Source: Salinirussus salinus (GTDB lineage Archaea; Halobacteriota; Halobacteria; Halobacteriales; Haloarculaceae). From it: a stretch of DNA of 64,000 nt. The position numbers and the translations under genes are program-made. The stretch lies in NCBI RefSeq assembly GCF_009831455.1, contig NZ_WOWO01000004.1, positions 372,001-436,000 of the forward strand, in the 5' to 3' direction. Below the pieces are notes generated by a model. The model had not been told where the DNA came from, did not search any database, and was given only the letters and a program-made list of their open reading frames with translations. Shown here in pieces: positions 6,800 to 62,835 of this stretch. Position 1 is the stretch's first letter, and every line of letters starts with the position of its first letter.

Positions 6800-7127
6800 C
6801 TGGCAGCCTGGACGCTCCACTGATCCCGGTCGGCGCGCGCTGTCGCGCGTATCCTCGCGCGACGAGCGCCGTGCGAGGTCTTCCCGAGTGCAACGAAGGA
6901 AGGCTCGGAAGGCGAGCGAAGCGAGTCTTCCGGTGGATGAGGAACGCAACGAGCGCAGCGAGTGAGTACCGCAGTCGGCTGGGGAGGTGTGTGGCCTCCG
7001 GTAGTTACTCTGGATAGTCGAGTCTGATGCGAGAACGGACCGACGGACCGGGGATTTCAGCCCGAGAGTTGGCCCACGCTCCCGACCGACGCGGCAGATA
7101 CAACAGGCTCCCGTCCGAGCCTCCGGT
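6800..7127. repeat. Intergenic interval with degenerate GAGCG/AGCGAG repeat units
   Basis: This 328-bp gap contains, at about 6835-6975, several near-palindromic units of the type GAGCGAAGCGAG and GAGCGCAGCGAG, plus possible stems such as CCGAG with CTCGG and GGAAG with CTTCC. Such AGCGAG-type units recur between haloarchaeal genes (recollection, not checked). They may act in RNA 3' ends or be non-coding mobile repeats. The last 30 bp before 7128 include a TATA-like agatacaac. Confidence 0.4.
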
Positions 7128-7400
7128 ATGAGCGGCGACGCCGACGACGAGGAGCGCGTCTGGCTGGTGGAACGCGATTACGACCAGAAGGGGCTGGTCA
7201 GGCTCGTCTACGCCACGCCCGGCGGCGACCGCCACCTCACGCGGGAACTCTCCCGGCAGATGCTCCAGCGGACCACCGTGACGGCCGCCCGGGTAGTCTC
7301 GGCAGACCGGCTCGAACCGACCCCCGGGACCGACCGGGAGCGCTACGCCGCCGAGGCGGGACGGATGGCCGACCGCCACGACCCCGACGACCCGGTCTGA
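7128..7400 (+). CDS. Conserved-looking hypothetical protein, 90 aa
   Basis: This small, acidic, soluble 90-residue protein has no family I recognise. It begins MSGDADDEERVWLVERDY and reads as a beta-strand-rich N-terminal half followed by a helix (HLTRELSRQMLQ) and an acidic tail. A TATA-like box about 30 bp upstream (near 7096) fits leaderless transcription from 7128. Codon use is haloarchaeal and the amino-acid balance is native, so it is probably a real gene. No Cys pairs or membrane segment are visible. Function unknown. Confidence 0.65.
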   Translation: MSGDADDEERVWLVERDYDQKGLVRLVYATPGGDRHLTRELSRQMLQRTTVTAARVVSADRLEPTPGTDRERYAAEAGRMADRHDPDDPV

Positions 7401-7437
7401 CTGTCCGGGACCGGCGGCTACCGAATCAGTTCCTTCG

Positions 7438-7447
7438 AAAGAAAAAG
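7438..7447 (-). terminator. T-rich terminator of the coiled-coil gene
   Basis: On the minus strand, about 30 nt after the stop at 7475, the sequence reads CTTTTTCTTTC. Such T-runs end many archaeal transcripts. No strong hairpin precedes it. Confidence 0.45.
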
Positions 7448-7474
7448 GGGTCTCCAGTCGGCAGCGGAGCGGCG

Positions 7475-8038
7475 CTACGCTTCGACGGCGTCGGCGGCCT
7501 GCTCGGAGATCTCCTCGACCTGCTGGGCGACCTCTTCCTGGGCCTCGGTGACCTGCTCGCGGAGGTGCTCGACCTGCTCGGAGACGCCCTCGACGGCCTC
7601 GACGGACTGGCCCTCGAGTTCGCTGTGGGCCTCGAGCAGGAGGTCGAGCTGCTCGTCGAGCGCGTCGAGGTAGTCCTGGGTCATCTCCTCGCCGGCCTCG
7701 ATGCTCTGCTCGAACTCGGCGGTGACCTGGTCGAAGGCCTCGGCGTGGTTGTCGAGCAGCGTCTCGTACCCCTCGTCGACGGCCTCGCGAACGTCCGCGA
7801 CGGCGTCTTCCATGCCGGGGACGTTGGCCTCGAGGGCGTCCAGCAGGCTGTGGGTGGCGCGCTGCTGGAGTTCGACGGTCGAGCGCTGGGCGGACTCCGT
7901 GCTCTCCATGCTGTCGAGCATTGCCTGGCCGGCGCGGTGCTGGAACTCGACGGTCTGCTCCATGGCCCGCTGGCTCTGCTCGATGCTCCGGCGCTGCAGT
8001 TCGAAGACGGTCGTGACGGGACTGGTGTACTCTGTCAT
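7475..8038 (-). CDS. Coiled-coil protein, phasin-like
   Basis: This 187-residue, highly acidic, almost entirely helical protein is rich in Glu and Gln, with heptad-like spacing throughout (QRRSIEQSQRAMEQTVEFQ, later VEHLREQVTEAQEEV). It has no Cys, signal peptide or membrane segment. The composition and Gln/Glu-rich amphipathic helices resemble phasin-like granule-coating proteins and apolipoprotein-like helices, but no phasin motif proves this; a structural or filament-forming role is also possible. The ATG at 8038 is chosen over a much longer upstream frame because a clear TATA box (ATATTTAT, 8067-8074 on the minus strand) lies at leaderless distance. A tandem repeat sits just upstream of that box. 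Confidence 0.7.
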   Translation of the reverse strand: MTEYTSPVTTVFELQRRSIEQSQRAMEQTVEFQHRAGQAMLDSMESTESAQRSTVELQQRATHSLLDALEANVPGMEDAVADVREAVDEGYETLLDNHAEAFDQVTAEFEQSIEAGEEMTQDYLDALDEQLDLLLEAHSELEGQSVEAVEGVSEQVEHLREQVTEAQEEVAQQVEEISEQAADAVEA

Positions 8039-8066
8039 CGTACCACCACGTACACCCCCGCGGCAC

Positions 8067-8104
8067 ATAAATATTCCGTTTACTACCATTTGATACCATT
8101 TGAT
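8067..8104 (-). promoter_or_regulatory. TATA box plus tandem 10-bp direct repeat upstream of the coiled-coil gene
   Basis: On the minus strand ATATTTAT (8067-8074) is a strong TATA box. Immediately upstream, the plus-strand decamer ACCATTTGAT occurs twice in direct tandem (8085-8094 and 8095-8104). A head-to-tail decamer, one helical turn apart and beside the TATA/BRE, looks like an activator or repressor site. Confidence 0.55.
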
Positions 8105-8245
8105 GCCACCACTGGTCGATACATCCCAAATGCGTGTCGAACAGCCACCAGCTGCCTGAGCTCCGGTAGTCGCGTTCCTCCGTCGTAGTTGCAGGTCCTG
8201 CACCTCCGCACCCGTTTTTATCCCCACTCCGGTCGACCCGCCGGT

Positions 8246-9205
8246 ATGGCGACGATCGAACTCAGCGGTCTGACCAAGACCTACGGCGACGTGACCGCGC
8301 TGTCCGGTGTCGACCTGTCGGTTCCGGAGGGAGAGATCTTCGGCTTTCTCGGGCCCAACGGCGCCGGCAAGTCCACGGCGATCGGCATCCTGCTTGATTT
8401 CGTCCGGCCGACCGCCGGCGAGGCCCGCGTGTTCGGCATGGACGCCCAGGCCCAGTCGCTGGCGATCCGCGAACGCACGGGCGTGCTCCCCGAGGGGTAC
8501 CACGTCTACGACCGCCTCTCGGGGCGCGAACACGTCGAGTTCGCCGTCGAATCGAAGGCTGCCAGCGAGGACCCCGACGGCCTCCTCGAGCGGGTCGGCC
8601 TCGCCGACGCCGCCGACCGCGCTGCCGGGGGCTACTCCAAGGGGATGAAACAGCGCCTCGCGCTCGCGATGGCGCTGGTCGGGGACCCCGACCTGCTCGT
8701 GCTCGACGAGCCCTCGACGGGGCTGGACCCGGCGGGCGCCCGCGAGATCCGCGAGCTCATCCGCGAGGAGAGCGCCGCCGGGACGACGGTCTTTTTCTCC
8801 AGTCACATCCTCAGCCAGGTCGAGGCAGTCTGTGACCGGGTGGGCATCCTCCGGGCCGGCGAGCTCGTCGCCGTCGACACCATCGAGGGGCTGCGCGAGG
8901 CCGCCGGGACGCGGGCGACGCTGACGGTCACCGTCGCGGCGCTGGCCGACGGGGCCGTCGAGGCGGTCCGCGAGACGCCCGGCGTCGCCTCGGTGTCCGT
9001 CGACGGCTCCCGGCTGGTCGTCGACGTCGAGGACGACGCCAAGACGGCCGTCCTCTCGGCGCTGGAGGATGCGGGCGCCGACGTCGAGGACTTCGAGACC
9101 GCCGAGTCCTCCCTGGAGGAGCTGTTCCTGTCCTACACCGGCGACGGCGAGCGGGAGGCGACGGGGACAGCGGTCGGGCGCGACGGGGAAGGAGGGAGGC
9201 GATGA
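8246..9205 (+). CDS. ABC-2 type transporter ATP-binding protein (pair 1)
   Basis: This 319-residue ATPase starts MATIELSGLTKTYGDVTALS. It has Walker A GPNGAGKST near residue 38, a signature written YSKGMKQRL near 130, Walker B LLVLDEPSTGLDP near 155, and the H-loop SSHIL. A C-terminal extension (after about residue 215) of the DrrA/NosF-like kind follows. It overlaps the permease gene at 9202 by 4 bp, giving translational coupling. The pair forms an ABC-2 exporter or membrane-remodelling system with unknown substrate. The ATG at 8246 is preferred to a longer upstream frame because the ATPase domain begins there directly. It is a close paralogue of the ATPase at 10119. Confidence 0.93.
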   Translation: MATIELSGLTKTYGDVTALSGVDLSVPEGEIFGFLGPNGAGKSTAIGILLDFVRPTAGEARVFGMDAQAQSLAIRERTGVLPEGYHVYDRLSGREHVEFAVESKAASEDPDGLLERVGLADAADRAAGGYSKGMKQRLALAMALVGDPDLLVLDEPSTGLDPAGAREIRELIREESAAGTTVFFSSHILSQVEAVCDRVGILRAGELVAVDTIEGLREAAGTRATLTVTVAALADGAVEAVRETPGVASVSVDGSRLVVDVEDDAKTAVLSALEDAGADVEDFETAESSLEELFLSYTGDGEREATGTAVGRDGEGGRR

Positions 9206-46915: not shown

Positions 46916-48160
46916 ATGCACCGGTCGCTCGTCCGGGCCGTGGTTCTCGTCGTTCTCGTCGGGGTCGTTACACCTGCAGCCGTCGGCGGCGCTACAGCAC
47001 AGGAACAGACGACCGTCACGGTCACCGTCGTCGACCAGGCAGGCGATCGGGTCGGCGACGTCGACCTGACGGTTGTGTGGAACGACGGCGAGGGCAGCGA
47101 GAACGTGACGACGCGCGCGAACGGGCAGGTGCTCGTCGACGTCCCCGAGGGCGCGACCGTCGAGGTGCGCGTCACCGACGACGAGTACCTCCGCAACAGG
47201 CCCGCGGTCTTCTTCGGCGCCGACGGCGGCGAACTCGAGGTCGAGGCCTCGCTGCCGGGGACCACACGCGTCACCGTGACCGACAGCGCCGGCCCGGTCG
47301 AGGGGGCGACGGTCCGGCTCTCCGGACAGGGGGTCACCCGGTCCGTCGACACCGACGCCGAGGGCGTGGCCGTCCTCGGTCCCGTCGAGCGCGGCAGCTA
47401 CGGGCTGCGGGTCAGCGAGCCCGGCTACCTGAGCAACTCGACCGGCGTCAACCTCACCGGCGAGGTCAACCGGACGGTCACGCTGCGCGAGGCCGACCGG
47501 CAACTCACCGTCCGGGTCGTCGACGACCATTTCGACCCGCCGCGGGCGCTCCCGGACGCGACCGTCGACATCGAGGGCGTGGCCGCGCTGACCACCGGGA
47601 ACAACGGCCAGCGCGGCACGACCGTGGCCGTCAACACCGACTACGAGGTGACCGCCACCAAGGACGGCTACGAATCGGTCACGCGAACGGTGTCGGTCGG
47701 CGAGTCCGACGAGTCGGTGACCCTCGCGGTCCAGCGCGAGGAGGCAGTCTCGGTCGAGGCGACTTCCACGCGGGTCGTCCTCGGCGAAGTGACGCGGCTG
47801 ACCGCCACCGACGAGTACGGCCAACCGGTCGCCGGCGCGACCGTCAGCGTCGACGGCACGGAGGTCGGGCAGACCGACGACCGGGGCGTCTACGACCTGA
47901 CGGTCGAGTCGGCCGGTAACCAGACGGTGACAGTCTCGACCGACGGCCTCTCGAGTTCGGTCACCATCGAGGGCTTCGAGCCCGACGGACAGGACACGCC
48001 GACGACCGCCGCCCCGACCGACGCCCCGACCGACACTCCGGAACCGACTGAGATCGACACCACTCCCGGCGGCGGTGGCCCCGGATTCGGCGCCGCTGTG
48101 GGGCTGACCGCGCTCGCGGTGCTCGTCGGACTCGCGCTCGCCCGCGCCCGGGACGCTTAA
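46916..48160 (+). CDS. Secreted PGF-CTERM protein with Ig-like/regulatory-type repeats
   Basis: This 414-residue protein begins with a Sec signal peptide (hydrophobic, about residues 8-28). It then has four or five beta-sandwich domains with strands like TVTVVDQAGDRVGDVDL and TVRLSGQGVTRSVDTDAEGV, similar to carboxypeptidase-regulatory or Big-type modules. A Thr/Pro-rich O-glycosylation-like linker leads to the C-terminal GGGPGFGAAVGLTALAVLV tail: the PGF motif, a membrane helix and an Arg-rich end. This is the archaeosortase A (ArtA) recognition tail, so the protein would be lipid-anchored after processing. Role: cell-surface structure or binding. Confidence 0.85.
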   Translation: MHRSLVRAVVLVVLVGVVTPAAVGGATAQEQTTVTVTVVDQAGDRVGDVDLTVVWNDGEGSENVTTRANGQVLVDVPEGATVEVRVTDDEYLRNRPAVFFGADGGELEVEASLPGTTRVTVTDSAGPVEGATVRLSGQGVTRSVDTDAEGVAVLGPVERGSYGLRVSEPGYLSNSTGVNLTGEVNRTVTLREADRQLTVRVVDDHFDPPRALPDATVDIEGVAALTTGNNGQRGTTVAVNTDYEVTATKDGYESVTRTVSVGESDESVTLAVQREEAVSVEATSTRVVLGEVTRLTATDEYGQPVAGATVSVDGTEVGQTDDRGVYDLTVESAGNQTVTVSTDGLSSSVTIEGFEPDGQDTPTTAAPTDAPTDTPEPTEIDTTPGGGGPGFGAAVGLTALAVLVGLALARARDA

Positions 48161-49419: not shown

Positions 49420-49833
49420 TCAAAAGCGCAGGTGGGAGGTCGAACTCGGCCCGCCGTCGCCGTCCTCGCTGGGGCCCTCGCCCGCGAACTCGTAGGCGTC
49501 GTCGGTCAGGAACACGTCGCCGCGGTTGACGCTCACCTCGACGCCGAGCAGCTCGGTTCCCGCCGCGGGGCCGTTCTCACAGCTCCCCTCACAGACGTCG
49601 AAGACCGACCCGTGCTTGGGGCAAACGAGGCCGCCGCCGCGAATGACCGCGCCGACGTCGCCCCCGCGGTCGAGGGGCTGGTCCTCGTGGGTACACCCGT
49701 TCACCCAGGCCGCGACGCCGTCCTCGCAGGGGAGAAGCGTCACCTCCACCTCCTCGCCGCGGCCGTCGGTGACGGTGAACAGCCAGGACCCCTCCTCGTG
49801 GACGGTTTCGACGGACGTGAGTCGGGTGGGCAC
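49420..49833 (-). CDS. Rieske [2Fe-2S] domain protein
   Basis: This 137-residue protein holds the Rieske cluster ligands Cys-x-His (NGCTHEDQPL) and Cys-x2-His (CPKHGSVFD). A second Cys pair (CEGSC) between strands is unusual. It is of the small ferredoxin type (as in ring-hydroxylating dioxygenases or nitrite reductase small subunit), transferring one electron. I use the GTG at 49833 as start, because a T-run (ggggttttt on the minus strand, about 49856) lies some 28 bp upstream; a longer ATG at 49914 would add an Arg/Pro-rich stretch. No partner oxygenase is adjacent. Confidence 0.85.
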   Translation of the reverse strand: MPTRLTSVETVHEEGSWLFTVTDGRGEEVEVTLLPCEDGVAAWVNGCTHEDQPLDRGGDVGAVIRGGGLVCPKHGSVFDVCEGSCENGPAAGTELLGVEVSVNRGDVFLTDDAYEFAGEGPSEDGDGGPSSTSHLRF

Positions 49834-49932
49834 GCCCCACACTGGCGGCGGGTGCGTGAAAAACCCCTCGCAGGGGAGCGCTCGCACCGCCAGGCCGACG
49901 GCCCGCGCCGGCACGCTACGTGATTAGCGGGG

Positions 49933-49942
49933 GGTTACTTGT
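49933..49942 (+). promoter_or_regulatory. GGTTACTTGT element, first copy
   Basis: The same decamer occurs at 52393-52402, 35 bp before the next gene of the surface block. TTACTT may act as a TATA-like box. Here transcription would start near 49963 and leave a leader of about 115 nt carrying the GGAGGG site 5 nt before the FAD oxidase ATG at 50079. Confidence 0.4.
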
Positions 49943-50078
49943 GGGATTGCCGGGAAGCCCTGCACCAGGACATGCACACGTATCCACCGTCGGCGGAGGG
50001 GGCGGCCGGCTCGAACGGCGCTTCGATGCCCGGGCCAACGGTCTGGCGTTCCGACGGCCGGCCTCCCGGAGGGCGGCC

Positions 50079-52310
50079 ATGACTGACGACCGGGACGGCG
50101 AGCCGGAGCGCGAGGACCGTCGGGAGAGCGACGGTGCCCCGGTCGACCGCCGGGATTTCCTGCGCTCTGTCGCGGCCGGCGTCGCGCTCGACCGGACGGT
50201 TGTCGAGGGCGCGGTCGGCCGCGGCAGCGAGGTCCGGCCGACGGGCAGGGACGGACGGCTCGCGAGCCAGCACACGCCAGTCTCCAGGCGGAGCTATCTC
50301 CCGGTCGAATCGGACTTCCTCTCGGTTCGCGGGCTCGCGCCCGCCCAGGGGACGAACGCCGGCGGGAACGTCTGGCGCGCCGGGACGTTCAGCGTCGCCG
50401 ACCTGGCAACCGAGTACGACGTCAACCGCGACCCGGTCTCGGTCCGCGAGCTGCGAACGCCACAGAAGGCTGCCAGCCAGGTACCGGTCTGGCAGAGCGG
50501 CTGGCAGAACTGGCTCGACGACTACGAACAACCGAACGCCAAGGACGTCAACATGGCCCAGGGGTCAGCCCACACGGAATTGCTCCGGACCGTCGTCAGC
50601 AAGACCAGCGGCGAGTTCCGCGGGGTCGGCTCCGGCCACTCCCACTCCGAGGCGGCGGTGCCGAAGGACCTGTTCACCGATATCAAGAGCCTCGAGGGAG
50701 AACTGCCCCGCCCCTGGCTCCGGGACCCGGGCGACGATTTCTGGGACTCGGGGAAGAAGCCCAACCCCGAGCCGCCCAGCCGGGACCACCTGATCCGGCT
50801 GCGAGGGGGGACGATCCTGAAGAAGCTCAACCGGAAGATCCTCCCCGGTGGCGGGGTCAACGGCCGGAAGCCGCTCGCCCTGCCGAACATGGGCGCGTGG
50901 GACGGGCAGACGCTCGCGGGGGCGATCAACACCTCGACACACGGCAGCGGACTCGGGCTCGGAACCTTCGCGGACCTGGTCCGGTCAGTCGAGATCATCA
51001 CCATCCCCGAATCACAGTACGAGAGCGGCGAGTCACACGTGCGCATGCTCCGGGTCGAGCCCTCCGAGGGAGTCACCGACCCGAAGAAGTTCGCGCGGGA
51101 CGCGGGCACTCACGACATGGTACTGGTTCAGGACGACGATATCTTCCACTCCGTCGTGGTCGGCTACGGAAGCATGGGGCTGGTCTACGCCTACACGCTG
51201 GAGCTGCGCGACCCCTTCTGGCTCGAGGAGACGAACAGCTTCGAACAGTGGGGCAGCTTCAACCCCTACCAGGAGGCCAAGCCCAAGAACAACCGCCACT
51301 ACCAGTTTCTGGTTAACATCATCGAGCCACAGCTGGAGGTGTTTACCGGAACGTCGCCCTCGAACGCGGCCTCCCCGCGCTGTCTCGTCCGGAAACGCAA
51401 CAAGGTGCCGGCCGGGAACTGGAGTCCGACCGAGCGGTTCAACACGGCAAACGAGGTCACGCAGTACGTCAACGCCTTCCAGAACGCCTACAAGAACTTC
51501 AACGCGAACGACCTCAAGAATCTGAACTTCTCGGCGGGGTTGACCAGGCTGGTGAACTTCGACATCCGGGACCTGGTCGCGCCGGACCCGCCGTTCAAGG
51601 CCCGGCCCGGCCGGAGTTCGGGCGAGGACAAGACGGCCTCCTACATCGCGTTGCGCCGGAAGCAGGACCTCCACCCCAATGACCTGACGAAGGCCGAACC
51701 CCCTGTCGACACCATCACGGCGGAGGTCGCCGTGCCCGCAGCGGACGTCAAGCCGGCGGTCGATGCCGTCATCGACTACGCCCTGAACAACCCGCGGCTG
51801 TTCCCCGCGCCCCTTGGGGTCCGGTTCACCGCCGGCAGCGAGCACTTCCTCTCCCCGGAGTACGGCCGGGAGACTGCGATGCTGGAGCTGCCGATCCCTC
51901 TGCCGGACACGCTGTCCAACGAGTTCAGCAACGTGAACACGGTGTACGACACGCCGGGTCCCGTCGGCGGCGTCTACACCAAACCGAAGAAGATCTTCTT
52001 CCAGAAGCTGAAAAAGCTCAACCAGAACACCAGAAACAGCCCCCACGACGGCCGGACGGGCTTTCTGGACCACATGCTCAACATCGACGAGGCGAAGAAG
52101 GAACTGGAGAAACTGGAGGACAGGCTCGTCAAGAACTTCGACGGCCGGCCACACATGGGCAAACACAACACAGTCGACGCCACCCCCTCCCGGAGCTACA
52201 TGAAGCCACAGAACATGTATCCGGAGTACGACAAGTGGCTCGACGCCTACAGGTACTTCAACAGCTCCGGGACGTTCGACGGGACGTTCACCGACAACAA
52301 GACGCCGTAA
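50079..52310 (+). CDS. Large exported-looking FAD-linked oxidase (VAO/ALO-like)
   Basis: This 743-residue protein has an N-terminal RRDFLRSVAAGVAL twin-arginine-like stretch (residues 23-36) that is only weakly hydrophobic. The first FAD region has GSGHSHSEA, with His187 where VAO-family enzymes often bind FAD covalently. The second has LPNMGAWDGQTLAGAINTST, then HGSGLGLGTFADL, typical of the FAD-binding half of arabinono- and gulono-lactone oxidases. C-terminal RPHMGKHNTVD and YRYFNSSGTFDGTF match the ALO-type tail. It is longer than most relatives, with Lys/Asn-rich segments unlike the acidic neighbours. The substrate is probably a sugar lactone or alcohol. A GGAGGG site lies 5 nt before the ATG. 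Confidence 0.7.
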   Translation: MTDDRDGEPEREDRRESDGAPVDRRDFLRSVAAGVALDRTVVEGAVGRGSEVRPTGRDGRLASQHTPVSRRSYLPVESDFLSVRGLAPAQGTNAGGNVWRAGTFSVADLATEYDVNRDPVSVRELRTPQKAASQVPVWQSGWQNWLDDYEQPNAKDVNMAQGSAHTELLRTVVSKTSGEFRGVGSGHSHSEAAVPKDLFTDIKSLEGELPRPWLRDPGDDFWDSGKKPNPEPPSRDHLIRLRGGTILKKLNRKILPGGGVNGRKPLALPNMGAWDGQTLAGAINTSTHGSGLGLGTFADLVRSVEIITIPESQYESGESHVRMLRVEPSEGVTDPKKFARDAGTHDMVLVQDDDIFHSVVVGYGSMGLVYAYTLELRDPFWLEETNSFEQWGSFNPYQEAKPKNNRHYQFLVNIIEPQLEVFTGTSPSNAASPRCLVRKRNKVPAGNWSPTERFNTANEVTQYVNAFQNAYKNFNANDLKNLNFSAGLTRLVNFDIRDLVAPDPPFKARPGRSSGEDKTASYIALRRKQDLHPNDLTKAEPPVDTITAEVAVPAADVKPAVDAVIDYALNNPRLFPAPLGVRFTAGSEHFLSPEYGRETAMLELPIPLPDTLSNEFSNVNTVYDTPGPVGGVYTKPKKIFFQKLKKLNQNTRNSPHDGRTGFLDHMLNIDEAKKELEKLEDRLVKNFDGRPHMGKHNTVDATPSRSYMKPQNMYPEYDKWLDAYRYFNSSGTFDGTFTDNKTP

Positions 52311-52392
52311 CGGGCCTCAAACTCCGGATACTGCACTCTCGGAGGGGTTGGAAAAACGCGGCATCTGAACCGACACTAAGTGGCTAGTGCAT

Positions 52393-52402
52393 GGTTACTT
52401 GT
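52393..52402 (+). promoter_or_regulatory. GGTTACTTGT element, second copy
   Basis: Identical to 49933-49942 and about 35 bp before the ATG at 52431. Shared promoter-like elements before two adjacent genes suggest co-regulation. Two copies in one window is weak evidence. Confidence 0.4.
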
Positions 52403-52430
52403 CGTCGGCTTTAGACCTGTAGACAGACCG

Positions 52431-53657
52431 ATGGCCAACCCCGACATCTTACTCGAACAGGACCGGATCAGCGTCGTTGGCGGCAGCGGTCCGGAGGAAA
52501 CAAACGGCACGGAGCGGGGCGACCTCGAGATCACGGCATCGGAGGGGGACCCTGCGAGCATCAGGTTGAACGCGGACCGGGCGAACCTGACCCTCGGCGG
52601 CGGGGGCGGGCGGGCGCCGGAAGGCGACCTGAAGATCCGCGACGCAAAGGAGAACCTGCGGATCCAGGTCAGCGCGGAGACCGGCAACCGGACCGCCCCC
52701 GGCGAAGACCGGGTGTGGATCAACGGCGGCACCGGGGAGGTCATGCTCGGTGACGGTGAGAACGACTTCGTGCACCTCGACGGGGGGAACGCGGAGATCG
52801 AGGTCAGGGACGCGACGGGGGACACGCAGGCCAGACTGAACAACGCCGGTTTGACGCTCTCCCAGTTCACCGGGGAGCCGGGAACTGTCACGGTGGCGCC
52901 GCTCATCCCCCCCGATACCAGAGAGACGATCCGGCTGTACGGGAACTCTGCGCGTGCTGCCATCGGAAACAACTTCGAGAGCGGCTCGCTCGAACTCTTC
53001 CGGAGCGGGAACACCGCCCAGTTTCATAAGACCATCGACCTCGACGGCGAGGAGGCTCAGGCGACACTCGGCGGGAGCAACCGGAGCGGGCGGGTCACAC
53101 TCACCGACAGCAACGACAACGACCGGGTGACGCTCGACGCCAGCACGGGGGAACTGCGCCTCTACGGGACGCCGCCGGACAGCGGGACGGACGCCCCGGA
53201 GGTCACGCTTGAGGCCGGGCAGAACAGGGCGAAGGCCTACATCGGCGGCTTCGACCGGAGCGGACAGGTCTGGCTGGCCAAGCAGAGCTCCGGCAATCAG
53301 TTATCGGTCCCGATCGACCTCGACGCCGAACACGCCCGGGCGACCGTCGGCGGCGACGGGACCGACGGCGTCGTCAAGACCACCGACAGCGGCGGGAGCA
53401 CGACCGCGGAGCTGCAGGGTGGAGACGGGAACGTCGTCGCCGGCGGCGACGGCACGGAGGGGACGGTGCTCCTGAGACACACCGACGGGAGCGGCACCAG
53501 CGTCAACTACCGGCTCACGGCCACCCAGCAGGGGCTGGTCTTCTCGACGATGCGGAGCCCGTCGGGAAGCGGGTCGACCACCAGCGAGCAGGAGGCGCTG
53601 CGGATCGACCCCGACGGGACCGTCCGGGTGAAAGGCGGCTCAGTCCAGTCGTTATGA
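52431..53657 (+). CDS. Beta-strand-repeat protein (tail-fibre-like), 408 aa
   Basis: This 408-residue protein has no signal peptide, Cys or membrane segment. It is built of irregular beta-rich repeats of about 20-35 residues with shared shapes such as QATLGGSNRSGRVTLTDSN, KAYIGGFDRSGQVWL and RATVGGDGTDGVVKTT, interspersed with RLYG and VTLDAS motifs. Such Gly/Asn/Asp/Thr-rich short strands recall beta-solenoid regions of phage tail fibres or bacterial adhesins. The stop overlaps the next ATG by 4 bp (ATGA), so it is translationally coupled to the PKD protein. How it reaches the surface is unclear. No enzymatic motif seen. Confidence 0.7.
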   Translation: MANPDILLEQDRISVVGGSGPEETNGTERGDLEITASEGDPASIRLNADRANLTLGGGGGRAPEGDLKIRDAKENLRIQVSAETGNRTAPGEDRVWINGGTGEVMLGDGENDFVHLDGGNAEIEVRDATGDTQARLNNAGLTLSQFTGEPGTVTVAPLIPPDTRETIRLYGNSARAAIGNNFESGSLELFRSGNTAQFHKTIDLDGEEAQATLGGSNRSGRVTLTDSNDNDRVTLDASTGELRLYGTPPDSGTDAPEVTLEAGQNRAKAYIGGFDRSGQVWLAKQSSGNQLSVPIDLDAEHARATVGGDGTDGVVKTTDSGGSTTAELQGGDGNVVAGGDGTEGTVLLRHTDGSGTSVNYRLTATQQGLVFSTMRSPSGSGSTTSEQEALRIDPDGTVRVKGGSVQSL

Positions 53658-56188
53658 CCGACGGACGCCGTGTCGTACTGACTGCCGCGTTCGCGGTCTG
53701 CCTCCTCGCCGTCCTGCTGGTTCCGGCCTCGGCGGCAGCCGCCTCCGCTGACACACCGGTCGGAGGGGGTGACTCGCCAGCCACGCTCGCTGCAGTCGAC
53801 CGGGCAGGGACCCTCGCGGCGGTCACTGCGCGGTGTGAACTCTCCCCGACCAGTATCGCGCCCGGCGAGTCCGCGACCATCGACGCCTCGGCCTCGCAGG
53901 ACGCCGACGTCTACCGGTACGACCCGTTCGGAACCGGCGAGTTCGGCGACTTCGTCGAGCGTGCGACGCGGACGGTCACCTACCAGGAGGTCGGCACCTA
54001 CGAGCCACGGGTCAGGGCGATCAACGCGACGACGGAAACCACCGACCAGGTGACCTGCGGGACGCTCACCGTCGCCAGCACCAGCGAGAATCAGAAACCC
54101 ACTGCCGACCTCTCGTACTCGCCGACCGAGCCCGCACCCGACCAGGCGGTGTCGTTCACTGCCGAGGCATCCGACCCGGACGGCGAAGTCGTGGCCTACA
54201 CCTGGCTGGTCGACGGCGAGCCCGTCGCCGAGGGGCCGGACTTCGAGTACGCGTTCCCCGGTCCCGGGAACTACACAGTCGGAGTGAGAGTGACCGACGA
54301 CGACGGTGCGACCGGGACCGTGAACCGGACGGTCACCGTCGAGAGCGTCGACGTCGTCGCGCGGTGTGAGCTCTCGGCGACCAGCATCGCGCCCGGCGAG
54401 TCCGTGACGCTCGACGCCGCGGCGTCGCAGGACGCCAGCGCCTACCGGTACGACGTGTTCGGGACCGGCGAGTTCGGCGAGCTCGTCGACCGCGCATCGC
54501 GGACGGTCACCTACCAGGAGGTCGGCACCTACGAGCCACGGGTCAGGGCCGTCGCCCTCCCGACGGAGGACACCGACCAGGCGGTCTGTGGGGAACTCAC
54601 CGTCGCTAGCACCAGCGAGAACCAGGCCCCGACGGCAGAGGTATCGTACTCCCCATCCGAGCCCGTCGCCGGGGAACCGGTAGCGTTCAGCGCGGACGCG
54701 ACCGACCCCGACGACGACCTTCTGGAGTACGACTGGCGGGTTAACGGGAGACAGGTCAGCGTCTACCCCGAGTTCGAGTACACCTTCGAGGGCCCCGGCG
54801 AGTACGAGGTCGCGGTGACGGTCACCGACGACGACGGCGGGGCCGACACCGTCCGCAGGGTCGTCACCGTCGCCGGCACCAGCGAGAACCAGCTCCCGAC
54901 GGCGGACTTCTCGGTCACCCCACAGGAGCCCACGCCGGGTGCGGAAACGACGTTCGTCGCCGACGCGTCGGACCCCGACGGCGAGGTCGTCGAGTACACC
55001 TGGCAGATCGACGGCCAGCGGGTCGCCGGCGGCTCCGAGTTCACGGTCTCCCTCCCCGAGGCGGGCGAGTACGAGGTGCGGCTGACGGCGACCGACGACG
55101 ACGGGGGCGTCGCCACTGCAACCAAGACCGTCACCGTCAGCGAGTCCGGCACGAACCAGCCGCCGACCGCCGACTTCGCCGTCGACCCGCTGGCGCCGGC
55201 CCCGGGGGAGACGGTCGCGTTCGAGGCGACTGCGAGCGACAGTGACGGGAGCGTGGGGGGATACCAGTGGCGGATTGACGGGTCGGTGGTCGCCGAGGGA
55301 CCGGACTTCGAGTACGCCTTCCCGGACCGCGGTGAGTACACGGTCGCGCTGACCGTGACCGACGACGACGGGGCGACCGCCTCGGCCAGCCGTGAGGTTA
55401 CCGTGGACGGCGAGGAACGGACACAGACGGCCACCCCGCAGCCGACGGCCACGCCGACACCGAGAGGGGACCTCACGCTGAGTGCCGCGTGGTGGCACTC
55501 CCCGACCGTCCCGCTCCGGGGCGAGCCGGTGACGCTGGTCGCGAGCGGCCCCACGGACCCGGCGGTGACCTACCGGTGGGACGTCGACGACGACGGGAGC
55601 TACGAGACGCAGGGGGCGCTCGCCAGCCACGTGTTCACCACTGCGGGCGACCACGCAGTGACGCTCCAGGCCACGCTCCCGGACGGGTCGACGGAGACGA
55701 CCACCGAGGCCGTCGCCGTGGCCGACGAGACGGTGAGCCAGCCCGGGACCGGTGCCACCCTCCTCTGGCACGCCCCGGTCAACCCACAACCCGGCGAGAC
55801 GGTGACGCTGGTCGCGGACGTCCGAGCGGACGACGAGACCGTCGCGGCGTACCGGTGGGACGTCGACGACGACGGAGGGACCGACGCCGGCGGCGAGGTC
55901 GTGGCCCACACGTACCGGAGCGAGGGCCGGTACACGGCGCGGTTGACTGTCGAGTACGCCAACGGGAGTACCACAGCCGGCGCTGACACCGTCGTTGTCG
56001 GGGACCCGGCGGCGACCGCGACGGCGACCCCGTCGCCGGCTCCGGCGCGGACGACGACAGACGGGGGGACGGCGACCGCCACATCCGTTGGGGGAACGAC
56101 CGGCGGAGGAAGCCCCGGATTCGGCGTCCCGGCCGGCCTCGCTGCGTTCGCGTTGCTCGCTGTCCGCCTTCTCAGGGTGTCGCGGTGA
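53654..56188 (+). CDS. PKD-repeat surface protein with PGF-CTERM anchor
   Basis: This 844-residue protein has a Sec signal peptide (about residues 7-30). Two homologous blocks starting RCELSPTSIAPGESATID and RCELSATSIAPGESVTLD follow, with about four PKD domains (NQKPTADLSYSPTEP-type starts, with DTV or DDDGG strand endings) and two further PKD-like modules near the end. A Thr-rich linker leads to GGSPGFGVPAGLAAFALLAV plus Arg, the PGF-CTERM archaeosortase tail. PKD domains bind proteins or carbohydrates at cell surfaces. A perfect 51-bp DNA repeat (53968-54018 and 54499-54549) shows recent internal duplication. It is coupled to the beta-repeat gene. Confidence 0.9.
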   Translation: MTDGRRVVLTAAFAVCLLAVLLVPASAAAASADTPVGGGDSPATLAAVDRAGTLAAVTARCELSPTSIAPGESATIDASASQDADVYRYDPFGTGEFGDFVERATRTVTYQEVGTYEPRVRAINATTETTDQVTCGTLTVASTSENQKPTADLSYSPTEPAPDQAVSFTAEASDPDGEVVAYTWLVDGEPVAEGPDFEYAFPGPGNYTVGVRVTDDDGATGTVNRTVTVESVDVVARCELSATSIAPGESVTLDAAASQDASAYRYDVFGTGEFGELVDRASRTVTYQEVGTYEPRVRAVALPTEDTDQAVCGELTVASTSENQAPTAEVSYSPSEPVAGEPVAFSADATDPDDDLLEYDWRVNGRQVSVYPEFEYTFEGPGEYEVAVTVTDDDGGADTVRRVVTVAGTSENQLPTADFSVTPQEPTPGAETTFVADASDPDGEVVEYTWQIDGQRVAGGSEFTVSLPEAGEYEVRLTATDDDGGVATATKTVTVSESGTNQPPTADFAVDPLAPAPGETVAFEATASDSDGSVGGYQWRIDGSVVAEGPDFEYAFPDRGEYTVALTVTDDDGATASASREVTVDGEERTQTATPQPTATPTPRGDLTLSAAWWHSPTVPLRGEPVTLVASGPTDPAVTYRWDVDDDGSYETQGALASHVFTTAGDHAVTLQATLPDGSTETTTEAVAVADETVSQPGTGATLLWHAPVNPQPGETVTLVADVRADDETVAAYRWDVDDDGGTDAGGEVVAHTYRSEGRYTARLTVEYANGSTTAGADTVVVGDPAATATATPSPAPARTTTDGGTATATSVGGTTGGGSPGFGVPAGLAAFALLAVRLLRVSR

Positions 56189-56284
56189 GCACTGACTGCT
56201 CCGGACCACGACCGGCTACCGACCGGAAGCGGGGCTGAATCGACGGTACCGTTTTCACCGACCCACCGGAACCAACCTCCAGCG

Positions 56285-56482
56285 ATGAAAGTCGAGATCG
56301 AGATACCCGACAAGTACGCACAGAAACTCGAGGAGGTCGAGGCGGTCGAGCCGACGATCCACGACCAGATCGAGGTCGAGGTCCTCCCGCAGGTCCTCCG
56401 GCTGATAAACGACGCCCACAGGCAGCTCGAAGAACAGAGCCAGGGCCAGCTCGTTGGGGGCACCGACGACGCGCGGGAGTAG
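56285..56482 (+). CDS. Hypothetical 65-residue protein
   Basis: This small protein starts MKVEIEIPDKYAQKLEEVEA, a strand followed by a helix somewhat like a ribbon-helix-helix or a coiled-coil start. A second helix (VLRLINDAHRQLEEQSQ) and a charged tail follow. No family is recognised. A TATA-like cgttttcacc lies about 30 bp upstream, and codon use is native. It could be a regulator of the surface block, but no operator matching is visible. Confidence 0.5.
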   Translation: MKVEIEIPDKYAQKLEEVEAVEPTIHDQIEVEVLPQVLRLINDAHRQLEEQSQGQLVGGTDDARE

Positions 56483-56500
56483 CGAGGCCGGGGTTCGTGT

Positions 56501-56516
56501 ACATATATTTATATGT
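56501..56516. promoter_or_regulatory. AT-rich 16-bp palindrome before the beta-helix gene
   Basis: ACATATATTTATATGT has perfect 7-bp arms (ACATATA/TATATGT) around TT, in a GC-rich setting, about 85 bp before the ATG at 56601 and 19 bp after the preceding stop. It could be an operator or a strong AT-rich promoter core. A further AT-rich TATA-like stretch at 56562-56576 is closer to the ATG. Confidence 0.5.
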
Positions 56517-56600
56517 CTCCAGCCCCGCCCCGCCGGTTCCGCCAATCTAGACACACTAACACCCAAATTTACATATGCGACTTACAACAAACGAGCAAAC

Positions 56601-57941
56601 ATGTCAAACGGATCTGGGAACGAGGGGCAGGCCGACCCGGGCTTCGCGCGGCGGGATATCCTCGCCACGGCGGGGGCTGTCGCCGTCGGCGGCGTCGCGG
56701 GCTGCTCGCAGAGTACCGGCACGCCCACCGGGTCGGGGAACACACCGACGACGACGCCCCCTGGAGCGACCACGACCACCGCTCGCACGACGACCCCCGC
56801 GAACCCCTGTGAGTCTCCGACAGTCCTCTCGCCGTCTGACGTCGAGGACGGCGGGACCGTCTCGGCGGGGTGCTACCGGGCAGAGAACACGCTCACAGTC
56901 GAGCGCGGGACCCTGACGCTGGAGGCCGGCGTCGTCATCCAGTTCACGCAGAACGAGGGCCTCGAGGTCGAATCCGAGGGCCGGCTGCGGGCCAGCGGAA
57001 CCGAGGGCCAGCCCGTGATACTGACGGGCACCGAAGAGAGCAGAGGCTTCTGGAAGGGGCTCCGGATCGGGAATTCCAACTCGACCGACAACGTCCTCGA
57101 ACACACTGTTGTCCAGTACGCCGGCGCCTCGTCCTGGAACCCCAACTACTCGCCGGCGGGCGTGTTCGTCCGGGGCGAGACCGCCACGCTGTCCGTCCGC
57201 CAGTCGACGGTCCGGAGCAACGCCAGCATGGGGCTGACCGTGACCCAGCCGGAGGCCCACCTCGACCTCCAGGGGGTCTCGTTCGAAGACAACGAAGCCC
57301 CGCTGTACATCCCCGCGAACCTCGCCGGCGGTATCGCCCCGAACACCGCCTTCGAGAACAACGACGAGAGCGCCGTCTTCCTCGGCGAGCCGAGCGGTGC
57401 CGGCTGGACGACCGTCGCAGAGTCGGCCGCCTGGCCGGCACTCGACGTGCCCTACCGGTCGCGCATCAACGTGCACGTCGAGGCCCCCGTGGAGGTCGCT
57501 CCCGGCACGACCGTCGAGTTCGAACAGGGACGCGGCATGCAGGTTCGCGGCGAGGGGCGGCTGACGGCCGATGCCGCCGAAGCCGAGCCGATCACCTTCC
57601 GCGGGACCGAGGAGATCACCGGGTTCTGGAAGGGGCTGTTCTTCACCAACTCGCTGAGCAGCGACAACGTCCTGCGCAACGTCGTCATCGAGAACGGGGG
57701 CAGCGGCGAGACGGAGAGCGGTGGTGCCAACGACGTGGCGAACCTCTACGTCGACGGTGACCAGACCGCCGCCGCCGTCACCGTCAGCAACTCGACGGTC
57801 CGGGGGAGCGGGAAGTACGGCATCGCCGTCAGAGACGGGAACGCGCGGCTGATGGGCTGTGGCGGCGTGACCTTCGAGAACAACGCGGGGGCGGACACGT
57901 ACAACCTCGAGGCGGGAGCCCCGATCTCCCGGTGCCAGTAG
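56601..57941 (+). CDS. Tat lipoprotein with right-handed beta-helix (pectate-lyase-like)
   Basis: This 446-residue protein has a Tat signal with lipobox: RRDILATAGAVAVGGVAGC (Arg18-19, Cys near 35). A Thr/Gly/Pro-rich linker follows, then two halves of a parallel beta-helix. Repeated forms are LEVESEGRLRASGTEGQPVI, TGTEESRGFWKGL, SVRQSTVRSN and later VEFEQGRGMQV, ITFRGTEEITGFWKGL and TVSNSTVRGSGKYG. The matching halves show internal duplication. Beta-helix proteins are often carbohydrate lyases or adhesins; no catalytic Lys/Arg set is identified. The ATG at 56601 has an AT-rich TATA-like stretch (56562-56576) at the right distance. Confidence 0.85.
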   Translation: MSNGSGNEGQADPGFARRDILATAGAVAVGGVAGCSQSTGTPTGSGNTPTTTPPGATTTTARTTTPANPCESPTVLSPSDVEDGGTVSAGCYRAENTLTVERGTLTLEAGVVIQFTQNEGLEVESEGRLRASGTEGQPVILTGTEESRGFWKGLRIGNSNSTDNVLEHTVVQYAGASSWNPNYSPAGVFVRGETATLSVRQSTVRSNASMGLTVTQPEAHLDLQGVSFEDNEAPLYIPANLAGGIAPNTAFENNDESAVFLGEPSGAGWTTVAESAAWPALDVPYRSRINVHVEAPVEVAPGTTVEFEQGRGMQVRGEGRLTADAAEAEPITFRGTEEITGFWKGLFFTNSLSSDNVLRNVVIENGGSGETESGGANDVANLYVDGDQTAAAVTVSNSTVRGSGKYGIAVRDGNARLMGCGGVTFENNAGADTYNLEAGAPISRCQ

Positions 57942-60816: not shown

Positions 60817-62835
60817 ATGGTGGCCGTCCGCGAACTCGCCGCGGCACTCGTCGTCGTCCTCGCGCTCGGGGCGGCCGTCGCCCCGGCGGCTGGAACCGTC
60901 CCCGCTCCCGGCGGGGGGGCCCAGACGGACGACACGAGTCAGACCGTCGTCGTCACCCAGGAGTTCCGGCTCATGCCCGACCGCCCGGGATACATCGACG
61001 TCCGCTGGGAGTTCGACATCCCGGAGGCCGTCTCCGAGGTCCGCCCGCGGGTCCCGGCGGACGCTGTGAACCCTCGAACCGACGGGTTCACGCCTGCTGC
61101 CGGCACCAGCTACGAGTGGGACGGGACGACCGAGACGCCGTCGCTGACGTTCACCGTCCCGGTCAACGAGACCCGAGAGGTGCCCGGTCCCGAGGGCGCC
61201 GACGGCCAGTACGTCTTCGTCGACACTGGCGACTGGGCGGTCGCCGGAAACGACGGCGTCCCCTTCGGCTACACCTACCGCGGCGATACGGATATCACCG
61301 TCCAGCAGCGAAACGTCACCGCCGGCCCCGGCGTCGCCGGCCGGGCGATGGTCTTTCTGGGCGCCCACGAGGAGTACACTCGCTCGGCACACGGCCAGCG
61401 GTTCCGGCTGGTCGTCCCGGACGCCGCCGACCTGGCGCCCTCCAGGGAGGAGGTCTTCGACAGCGTGACCGCCGCCTCGGACACGCTTCGGGTCGGCGAC
61501 CGGGACCCGCAGGTCCTGATGGTCGCGGCGCCGACGACCGTCGACTGGGGGGTCGAGGGGCTCCAGCGCGGTGACCGCGACCTCTACGTTACGGCCGACG
61601 AGGGCGTCGACACCCCCGAGAACACCTGGCTCCACGAGTACGTCCACACCCGCCAGCGGTTCAACCTCTCCGCGGAGACGACCTGGCTGGCGGAGGCGAC
61701 AGCCCAGTACTACGCCGCCCGGCTGACCCTCCGGCAGGACCGGGTCGGCTTCCGCGAGTTCGCTGGCCTGCTCCGCCGCGGGACCGACAGCCGCTTCTCG
61801 GAGGCGGTGCTCGCGAACCCGGCGACGTGGTCGACGGCGAACTACCACGTCGGCGCGCTCGTCGTCGGTGACCTTGACCGGCGGACCCGGCTGGCGACCG
61901 ACAGCGCGAGCACCTTCCAGGCGGTGTTCCGCCGGCTCAACGAGCGCTCGACGGCCACCTCCGGCCGCGAGTTCCTCGGGATAGTCCGCGGGACCGGGGG
62001 CGACGCCGTGGCCGAGCGGGCCCGCCGGTACGCCGAGACGACCGACCGCCCCGCGGTCTGGTCGGCCACCGAGCACGGCGAGGCCTTCGGCCCGCTCCCG
62101 GCGCGCATGCGGTACGCCATCGACGGGCTCGCGGTCCGCGGTCCCTACCGCAACGGGAGTCTGTCGGCCTCGGGCACGGTCCGGCTCGTGACCGGCGAGT
62201 CGGTCGGCGTGAACGCGACGGCGACGAACGTCGGCGGCCGCACAGGGCCGTACAACCTGACGCTGACCCGTGACGGCCGGGTCGTCGACTACGCGACCGG
62301 CGAGCTCGACCCCGACGGGACCGCCGCGGTGCCGGTCGCGGCCTCCTTCGGAGAGCCCGGCACCTACGCGCTGGCGGTCGAGGGGGCACGCCGGACCGTC
62401 GAGGTGCGCCGGCCGGCCGCCCTCACCGTGTCGGAGCTCGCTGTCGACCGCGGGCGGGTCGAGCCCGGTGCGTCGGTGACCGTGACCGCGACCGTCCGCA
62501 ACGGTGCCGACCGGCCCGGGGAGACGGCTCTGACCGTCGCCCGCGACAGCCAGGTCGTCGACCGCCGCACCCTCCGCCTGGACGCCGGCGGCGTGCGAAC
62601 CGTCTCCCTGAGCGTCCGGGTCCCGGAGGGCAGCCACCGGATCACCGCCGGCGACCGGTCGGTGACCGTCACCGGCGGGGACGGTGAGACGACGGCCGGG
62701 GGGCGTGAAGAGACCGGCGGGTCGGGCGGCGACGCCACGGCCGGCGGCGCCACGCCCGGCTTCGGGGTCGCCGGCGTCGTTCTGGCGGTCGCTGCTGTGC
62801 TCGCGGTGGCCCGCGCGCTCGCCCTCGACCGCTAG
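60817..62835 (+). CDS. Secreted HExxH metallopeptidase-like protein, PGF-CTERM
   Basis: This 672-residue protein has a Sec signal peptide (about residues 5-25). An N-terminal beta-rich domain follows, then WLHEYVHTRQRF (HExxH: His273, Glu274, His277) and LAEATAQYYAARL with Glu293, 16 residues after His277. This gluzincin-like zinc site resembles M1/M61 peptidases, though the spacing is slightly short. CARDB-like beta domains (about 430-640) follow, then GATPGFGVAGVVLAVAAVLA and Arg, the PGF-CTERM tail for archaeosortase A. It is probably an anchored surface protease. A weak TATA-like ctatcc lies about 30 bp upstream. Confidence 0.8.
   Translation: MVAVRELAAALVVVLALGAAVAPAAGTVPAPGGGAQTDDTSQTVVVTQEFRLMPDRPGYIDVRWEFDIPEAVSEVRPRVPADAVNPRTDGFTPAAGTSYEWDGTTETPSLTFTVPVNETREVPGPEGADGQYVFVDTGDWAVAGNDGVPFGYTYRGDTDITVQQRNVTAGPGVAGRAMVFLGAHEEYTRSAHGQRFRLVVPDAADLAPSREEVFDSVTAASDTLRVGDRDPQVLMVAAPTTVDWGVEGLQRGDRDLYVTADEGVDTPENTWLHEYVHTRQRFNLSAETTWLAEATAQYYAARLTLRQDRVGFREFAGLLRRGTDSRFSEAVLANPATWSTANYHVGALVVGDLDRRTRLATDSASTFQAVFRRLNERSTATSGREFLGIVRGTGGDAVAERARRYAETTDRPAVWSATEHGEAFGPLPARMRYAIDGLAVRGPYRNGSLSASGTVRLVTGESVGVNATATNVGGRTGPYNLTLTRDGRVVDYATGELDPDGTAAVPVAASFGEPGTYALAVEGARRTVEVRRPAALTVSELAVDRGRVEPGASVTVTATVRNGADRPGETALTVARDSQVVDRRTLRLDAGGVRTVSLSVRVPEGSHRITAGDRSVTVTGGDGETTAGGREETGGSGGDATAGGATPGFGVAGVVLAVAAVLAVARALALDR

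Follow-up and report, generated by a model that had tools for sequence, protein, structure and literature searches.

We analyzed a 64-kb stretch of DNA from Salinirussus salinus (the window), in which all five genes that an initial annotation had described as an accessory surface block were found to be present; a 65-aa open reading frame that the annotation had left undescribed proves to be the most conserved part of the locus. The features are as follows.

49916..49942, + strand: first copy of a 27-bp element, CTANGTGNNTAGNGNNNGGTTACTTGT; a whole-genome search finds two copies, both at this locus
49972..50082, + strand: possible 36-codon upstream open reading frame, its stop codon running into the oxidase start (ATGA), suggested on grounds other than homology
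50079..52310, + strand: flavin oxidase, GLDH/ALO-type and FAD-linked, 743 aa, start ATG, N-terminal RRDFLR
52376..52402, + strand: the 27-bp element again (second copy), ahead of the beta-repeat gene
52431..53657, + strand: beta-repeat protein, 408 aa, Pfam search without match
53654..56188, + strand: PKD-repeat protein carrying a secretion signal and, at its C-terminus, a putative PGF-type anchor
56285..56482, + strand: 65-aa acidic protein, the most conserved cassette part, of no known family
56601..57941, + strand: Tat-lipoprotein with right-handed beta-helix, start ATG; a neighbor, not a recurring part

The beta-repeat stop and the PKD protein start overlap as ATGA (53654 vs. 53657). A shared decamer, from which common control had been proposed, occurs exactly twice in the 64 kb (0.01 expected) and forms the end of the longer element, whose copies at 49916–49942 and 52376–52402 are identical at 20/27 bases, a level reached in 0/300 dinucleotide shuffles of both intergenic regions. 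Allowing up to 3 mismatches, these are the two copies in the 3.37-Mb genome, and this locus-specific element supports the proposal. The gap from decamer to ATG is 38 nt at the beta-repeat gene and 39 nt at the 36-codon upstream frame.

The oxidase had been credited with lactone-oxidase-like FAD motifs and unusual length. It matches Pfam ALO (E = 1e-7), a family (PF04030) that is above gathering in the window oxidase and in those of loci L010, L009, L008 and L057, and the haloarchaeal oxidases measure 661–814 aa, compared with 422–540 aa for the known enzymes, and have an extra N-terminal region and inserts. FAD_binding_4 is above gathering in L009 and L008 only, falling below it in the window oxidase (18.7 vs. 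26.4), L010 and L057, and the NCBIfam cut-offs of TIGR01678/01679 are missed far by the window oxidase (62.4 bits vs. 292.25, and 30.1 vs. 396.8). Like AldO (2vfr), GLDH (7sml) and ALO/GULO, all of the VAO/PCMH fold, the protein carries GSGHS, NMGxxDxQTxxGA, HxGK and the Arg of E-x-R; alignment assigns the covalent-FAD His to position 187, the oxidase-type Gly to 272, the Arg to 582 and HxGK to 692–695, with H187 and G272 invariant across all nine aligned proteins. This His/Gly pair, typical of covalent, O2-using enzymes, accompanies covalent flavin and oxidase activity (PMC11099136), and the alignment also retains the Arg/Lys catalytic pair, Arg388/Lys456 (PMC11099136). From these residues we strongly infer that the oxidase binds its flavin covalently and reduces O2 to H2O2. 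A sugar, sugar lactone or alditol is its probable substrate. In contrast to the known enzymes, the Glu of E-x-R (Glu386 in GLDH) is replaced: Gly580 aligns to the Glu of 8qnc/8qnr and is invariant in five haloarchaeal sequences, and because this substrate-binding residue is missing the substrate is likely altered from that of classical lactone oxidases. Bacteroidota relatives of the oxidase likewise lack this Glu in the alignment; several of these relatives adjoin patatin-like genes. A second genome match to the oxidase, L002, shows 33% identity along only a portion of the protein and was put down to an ordinary FAD enzyme, distantly related.

Across 391 Halobacteria genomes, the oxidase occurs in 4, and a beta-repeat protein lies no more than two genes away in all four. 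These beta-repeat proteins share only ~30% identity and were located by reading gene neighborhoods, not by sequence search; a single-sequence search with the window protein returned only itself (1/391), and would wrongly have refuted the oxidase link. The 65-aa protein was found in 3/391 genomes, all three among the four with the oxidase and none elsewhere, with no such gene in genome G043 in this search, a point against the reading proposed below. Serving as the query within the window's family, it was recovered in 5/146 genomes (oxidase 3/142, all three among those five) and led to three further loci beyond the window: one complete (L057), one in which an endonuclease/phosphatase-fold enzyme replaces the oxidase (L058), and one at a contig end. 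An apparent match to it at E = 0.009 in G121 falls within a frame of 758 aa and is regarded as spurious. The co-occurrence check set beforehand, which looked for homologues that are neighbors elsewhere, upheld the link, as oxidase and beta-repeat genes adjoin in 5/5 haloarchaeal oxidase loci examined, from three families. A general pairing throughout the oxidase family was rejected, the relatives in Bacteroidota and one Proteobacterium (25–29%) having no beta-repeat neighbor.

The conserved unit is the beta-repeat protein (52431), the flavin oxidase (50079) and the 65-aa frame (56285–56482), the last defining a new family of small proteins and serving as a reliable marker of the unit. A PKD or FG-GAP protein forms a fourth part, as alternative partners, and such a surface-type beta-protein accompanies the oxidase in 5/5 loci. 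The window PKD protein has six or more PKD domains and a C-terminus, GGGSPGFGVPAGLAAFALLAVRLLRVSR, that is PGF-type by inspection, the Pfam PGF-CTERM model for archaeosortase substrates not being reported for it; its C-terminal part shares 37% identity with the PKD protein that neighbors the oxidase in G345. The same model scores 11.2 bits (threshold 18.8) in the L009 oxidase, and all three FG-GAP neighbors carry RRDLL motifs. The claim that the genes belong together is right, though partly wrong as to which ones: the beta-helix lipoprotein (Pfam Beta_helix, E = 1.5e-6) does not appear in the genes listed for the other loci and is not part of the unit.

Flanking genes differ at every locus, and in the oxidase tree the window sequence (family f1) joins G345 (family f4) at 100/100 support, away from the other f1 members G257 and G404. 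Horizontal transfer of the cassette between haloarchaea is most likely. The cassette itself is well supported; the mechanism that we propose for it below is putative. A virus or plasmid origin was rejected, as no relatives of the oxidase or the 65-aa protein were found in viral contigs or plasmids, and none of the beta-repeat protein in phage records; a defense system was likewise set aside, with no PADLOC match.

The nature of the beta-repeat protein is indicated by its homologue at L009 (G043), which closes with a Peptidase_S74 domain, an intramolecular chaperone of phage tail fibers (E = 1.5e-16), in the order beta-repeats, S74 domain, coiled coil, and also matches many phage tail-fiber families. 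Peptidase_S74-type C-terminal domains are trimeric chaperones (PMC4690869), and the presence of one on a beta-repeat homologue therefore implies a trimeric fiber; we strongly infer that the beta-repeat protein is a trimeric tail-fiber-like shaft. The domain was not found in the window protein, nor at L010, L008, L057 or L058, and the L008 homologue has a C-terminal domain common to other haloarchaeal repeat proteins, some of them YadA-like. The resemblance to S74-bearing phage fibers such as T5 pb1 and K1F endosialidase is through the G043 homologue, whereas here the gene is cellular, beside an enzyme and without virus genes. A bacterial-type GG-repeat protein in G239 (L038) has the same repeat style (28% identity, E = 1e-14) but a different C-terminal domain and no oxidase or 65-aa gene beside it. 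Searching PDB sequences with a profile of the beta-repeat protein yielded weak lectin matches only (E > 0.3). The AlphaFold monomer of the protein (mean pLDDT 35) is unusable, which counts against a fiber scaffold.

Our leading reading, which we regard as plausible but hold tentatively, is that of a horizontally transferred cassette making a fiber-scaffolded ectoenzyme; it appears to be an enzyme-display system, probably at the cell surface and hitherto undescribed. The folded oxidase would be exported via the Tat route, on its own signal in the window and G345 and by hitchhiking on an adjacent Tat-signaled FG-GAP propeller in G043, G257 and G404. It would stay at the membrane through a C-terminal helix of its own (G043, G404) or next to the PGF-anchored PKD protein (window, G345). 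The 65-aa protein, with two predicted helices and no export signal, may act as assembly adaptor or cassette regulator, and the module would display a Tat-exported, H2O2-producing oxidase on a fiber scaffold. Bacteria have Tat heterodimers and also C-tail hitchhikers (PMC10924467), including hydrogenases and formate dehydrogenases, and G043 and G404 share with them a signal-less cofactor enzyme, a C-terminal helix and an adjacent Tat-signaled partner, although the haloarchaeal partner is an FG-GAP propeller and co-export is putative.

A bolder version, which we consider doubtful, is an undescribed mobile archaeal module in which a virus-tail-fiber-like trimer, together with a dedicated 65-aa adaptor, would present exchangeable enzymes (flavin oxidase or endonuclease/phosphatase fold) on the cell exterior, possibly loading them via a short N-terminal motif that these unrelated enzymes have in common. 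Such a motif, [ILV]S[LFVI]R[SDG][LIV][AT][PD], is present in 4/5 oxidases and in the L058 enzyme; the similarity to the latter stands clearly above shuffles only against the L057 oxidase (5/1000), and it is therefore kept as a lead. Since the enzyme is exchangeable, redox is not a constant of the system, and the initial proposal of a surface redox or glycan-processing system is partly supported. Of the proteins encoded here, only the PKD protein and lipoprotein have support for a surface location, which is presumed for the rest, the beta-repeat protein having no recognizable signal peptide.

The absence of signals matters for the strongest competing explanation, a cytoplasmic scaffold in which the beta-repeat and 65-aa proteins organize an intracellular enzyme and the PKD/FG-GAP proteins are passengers. 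The beta-repeat and 65-aa proteins, three of the five oxidases and the L058 enzyme carry no recognizable export signal, and L058 has no FG-GAP or PKD partner; in the window oxidase, the Tat-like RRDFLR is followed by only a short, charge-interrupted hydrophobic stretch. The unit could therefore lie in the cytoplasm, in part or as a whole. We nevertheless judge this unlikely, given the Tat-like N-terminus of the G345 and, weakly, the window oxidase, the C-terminal hydrophobic anchors of the G043 and G404 oxidases, and the surface-type beta-protein at all five oxidase loci.

Enzyme exchange between unrelated folds, the tail-fiber chaperone, and sporadic distribution with transfer would also suit a competition cassette, whose tail-fiber-like binder aims a damaging, exchangeable enzyme at other cells, while the 65-aa protein would regulate it or confer immunity. 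This is improbable, as the gene lists of the loci show no sheath, tube, needle, baseplate or secretion genes, PADLOC gives no match, and one 65-aa protein is unlikely to confer immunity to both enzymes. Also improbable is a reading of the cassette as no more than a co-regulated catabolic or surface operon, with the 65-aa protein as a ribbon-helix-helix-like transcription factor that would act at the 27-bp elements. The sequence pattern of this protein is strand-helix-helix, and its AlphaFold monomer (pTM 0.40) shows two helices, 9–21 and 25–58, with the strand not formed. The elements are confined to this locus, yet the would-be DNA-facing strand is acidic (KxEIEL/IP), the PDB holds no structural match, and no similar element was found at the homologous loci despite 49–70% protein identity. 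Chance gathering of unrelated accessory genes in a variable region, which would fit the beta-helix lipoprotein, is scarcely credible for the unit, since adjacency repeats across families and the 65-aa bait correctly predicted new loci.

The finding replaces four "hypothetical" neighbors with a concrete, testable gene unit, and the proposed export of its oxidase would make this haloarchaeal flavoenzyme a candidate for Tat hitchhiking. One cassette host, Halapricum hydrolyticum (HArc-curdl7, locus L014), is described as a beta-1,3-glucan user in a title cited in PMC10963439, which hints at a role in polysaccharide oxidation. More broadly, the cassette may be a sign that archaeal cells have taken over tail-fiber-type proteins to scaffold enzymes.

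The block of genes that the initial annotation had picked out between a Rieske gene and mutS is borne out, with its members on the plus strand of a 3.37 Mb haloarchaeal genome, in which the window occupies G000:C4:372001-436000:

49420-49914, minus, Rieske gene, left flank of the block
50079-52310, plus, ALO/GLDH-type FAD oxidase
52431-53657, plus, beta-repeat protein
53654-56188, plus, PKD protein, its start overlapping the beta-repeat gene (ATGA)
56285-56482, plus, 65-aa ORF, left undescribed by the initial annotation
56601-57941, plus, Tat-lipoprotein with beta-helix
57989-60715, minus, mutS, right flank of the block

The oxidase gene (65.7% GC) and the 65-aa ORF (62.6%) are lower in GC than the flanking genes (71-73%). 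Two surface-type proteins with PGF/PGFG-type C-termini are encoded near the block, one with carboxypeptidase-regulatory-like repeats (46916-48160) and one with a CARDB domain (60817-62835).

A link between the oxidase and the beta-repeat protein had also been suggested, and we ran the proposed co-occurrence test across 391 Halobacteria genomes. The oxidase is rare (4/391), and reading its neighborhoods revealed a GG-repeat protein beginning M-x-x-x-D-I at most two genes away in all four carriers, namely the window's genome, G345 (an uncultured Halobacteria MAG; loci L010 and L013), G257 (Halapricum hydrolyticum; L008 and L014) and G043 (L009). Because the beta-repeat proteins of the other three loci are just 28-31% identical to that of the window, a single-sequence search of the 391 genomes with the latter found nothing beyond the query itself; a profile, in turn, gave full-length matches exactly in the four oxidase genomes, its remaining matches having in common the C-terminal domain alone or, in G239, the repeat style. 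These results establish that the link is real. The G239 protein (L038:8526-9986), from a haloarchaeal genome, is built of highly regular GG-repeats of bacterial type and has no oxidase or 65-aa gene alongside.

The 65-aa protein, which matched no Pfam, NCBIfam or PHROGs model, directly adjoins the oxidase in G257 and G345, and in the window it lies behind the beta-repeat and PKD genes. These two homologues are 66-70% identical to the window copy, compared with 41-48% for the oxidase. Its profile matched 3/391 genomes, precisely at the window, G257 and G345 loci, leaving G043 as an oxidase locus without it. Used as bait in the window's family (146 genomes), it uncovered three additional loci: L057 (G404), with 65-aa and beta-repeat genes, a Tat-signalled FG-GAP protein and an oxidase; L058 (G421), with 65-aa and beta-repeat genes but a 514-aa endonuclease/exonuclease/phosphatase-family protein in the oxidase position (6843-8384, minus; PF03372, E=2e-5, slightly over gathering); and L059 (G440), a contig end where the 65-aa gene is accompanied by the terminal portion of a repeat protein. 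Three of 142 genomes searched within this family encode the oxidase, each of them a carrier of the 65-aa gene as well. The constant core is therefore the beta-repeat and 65-aa proteins (the latter missing from G043); what varies is the enzyme. The N-terminal VSLRSVAD of the L058 enzyme resembles ISLRSLTD of the L057 oxidase.

Oxidase loci fall into two architectures. In the window and G345, the oxidase bears an N-terminal RR motif (by inspection, a good Tat-type signal in G345 and a short, charge-interrupted one in the window) and is accompanied by a PKD protein with a PGF-type end, the two PKD proteins sharing 37% identity over ~235 residues of their C-terminal parts. In G043, G257 and G404, by contrast, the oxidase has no recognisable signal peptide, and the FG-GAP protein that precedes it bears a Tat-type RRDLL signal; the G043 and G404 oxidases end in a hydrophobic helix with PGF/PGL ahead of it. 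In the oxidase tree, the window sequence groups with that of G345, from a different haloarchaeal family (support 100/100), apart from two other sequences of its own family, and flanking genes differ in every locus; the cassette has thus moved between families.

Against solved structures, the oxidase profile matches alditol oxidase (AldO; 2vfr, E=1e-20) and GLDH. His187 aligns with the His of AldO GSGHS, the covalent-flavin residue of the family, and Gly272 with GLDH position 113, a residue that confers oxidase behaviour as Gly and dehydrogenase behaviour as Ala (PMC11099136). Arg582 and Lys695 correspond to the catalytic pair Arg388/Lys456 (PMC11099136), the Lys match being our reading of the HxGK motif. 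Gly580 takes the place of Glu386, which contacts substrate in GLDH and is missing in Bacteroidota relatives too. We predict a covalent flavoprotein oxidase that makes H2O2 and acts on a substrate other than a classical aldonolactone. The extra length of the enzyme consists of an N-terminal region and inserts, variable among homologues. Bacteroidota relatives (L016, L017, L019) have a different recurrent neighbour, patatin-like phospholipase genes, adjoining or within 1-2 genes.

The beta-repeat family is best read as a trimeric fibre, since the L009 homologue closes with a Peptidase_S74 domain (E=1.5e-16) and, beyond it, a coiled coil, and the L008 homologue has a C-terminal domain that recurs on YadA-like repeat proteins from other haloarchaea. 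Domains of the S74 type act as trimeric intramolecular chaperones (PMC4690869), and the L009 protein also matches many phage tail-fibre families. The window's protein has neither Peptidase_S74 nor the L008-type domain, and its AlphaFold model (pLDDT 35) is too low in confidence to support a fold. Haloarchaeal repeat proteins at L039, L040, L041, L042 and L046, some with YadA-like GGG..N repeats, share the L008 domain; the L039-L041 matches adjoin dTDP-rhamnose-type sugar genes.

The decamer previously reported before 50079 and 52431 makes up the 3' end of a 27-bp element whose two copies agree at 20 positions, a level matched by 0/300 shuffles. Genome-wide, the element occurs at this locus only, which, as the search pattern was derived from the two sites themselves, excludes just a general promoter element. 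It shows no conservation at the other cassette loci. Both copies lie 38-39 nt from the next ATG, which on the oxidase side is that of a 36-codon ORF (49972-50082) whose stop overlaps the oxidase start (ATGA).

A limited search of the open-access literature found no published description of this unit. A main doubt about its mechanism is that the beta-repeat and 65-aa proteins lack export signals, and we give the full scheme slightly less than an even chance: the fibre would scaffold an oxidase exported via Tat, with the 65-aa protein serving as a small adaptor.
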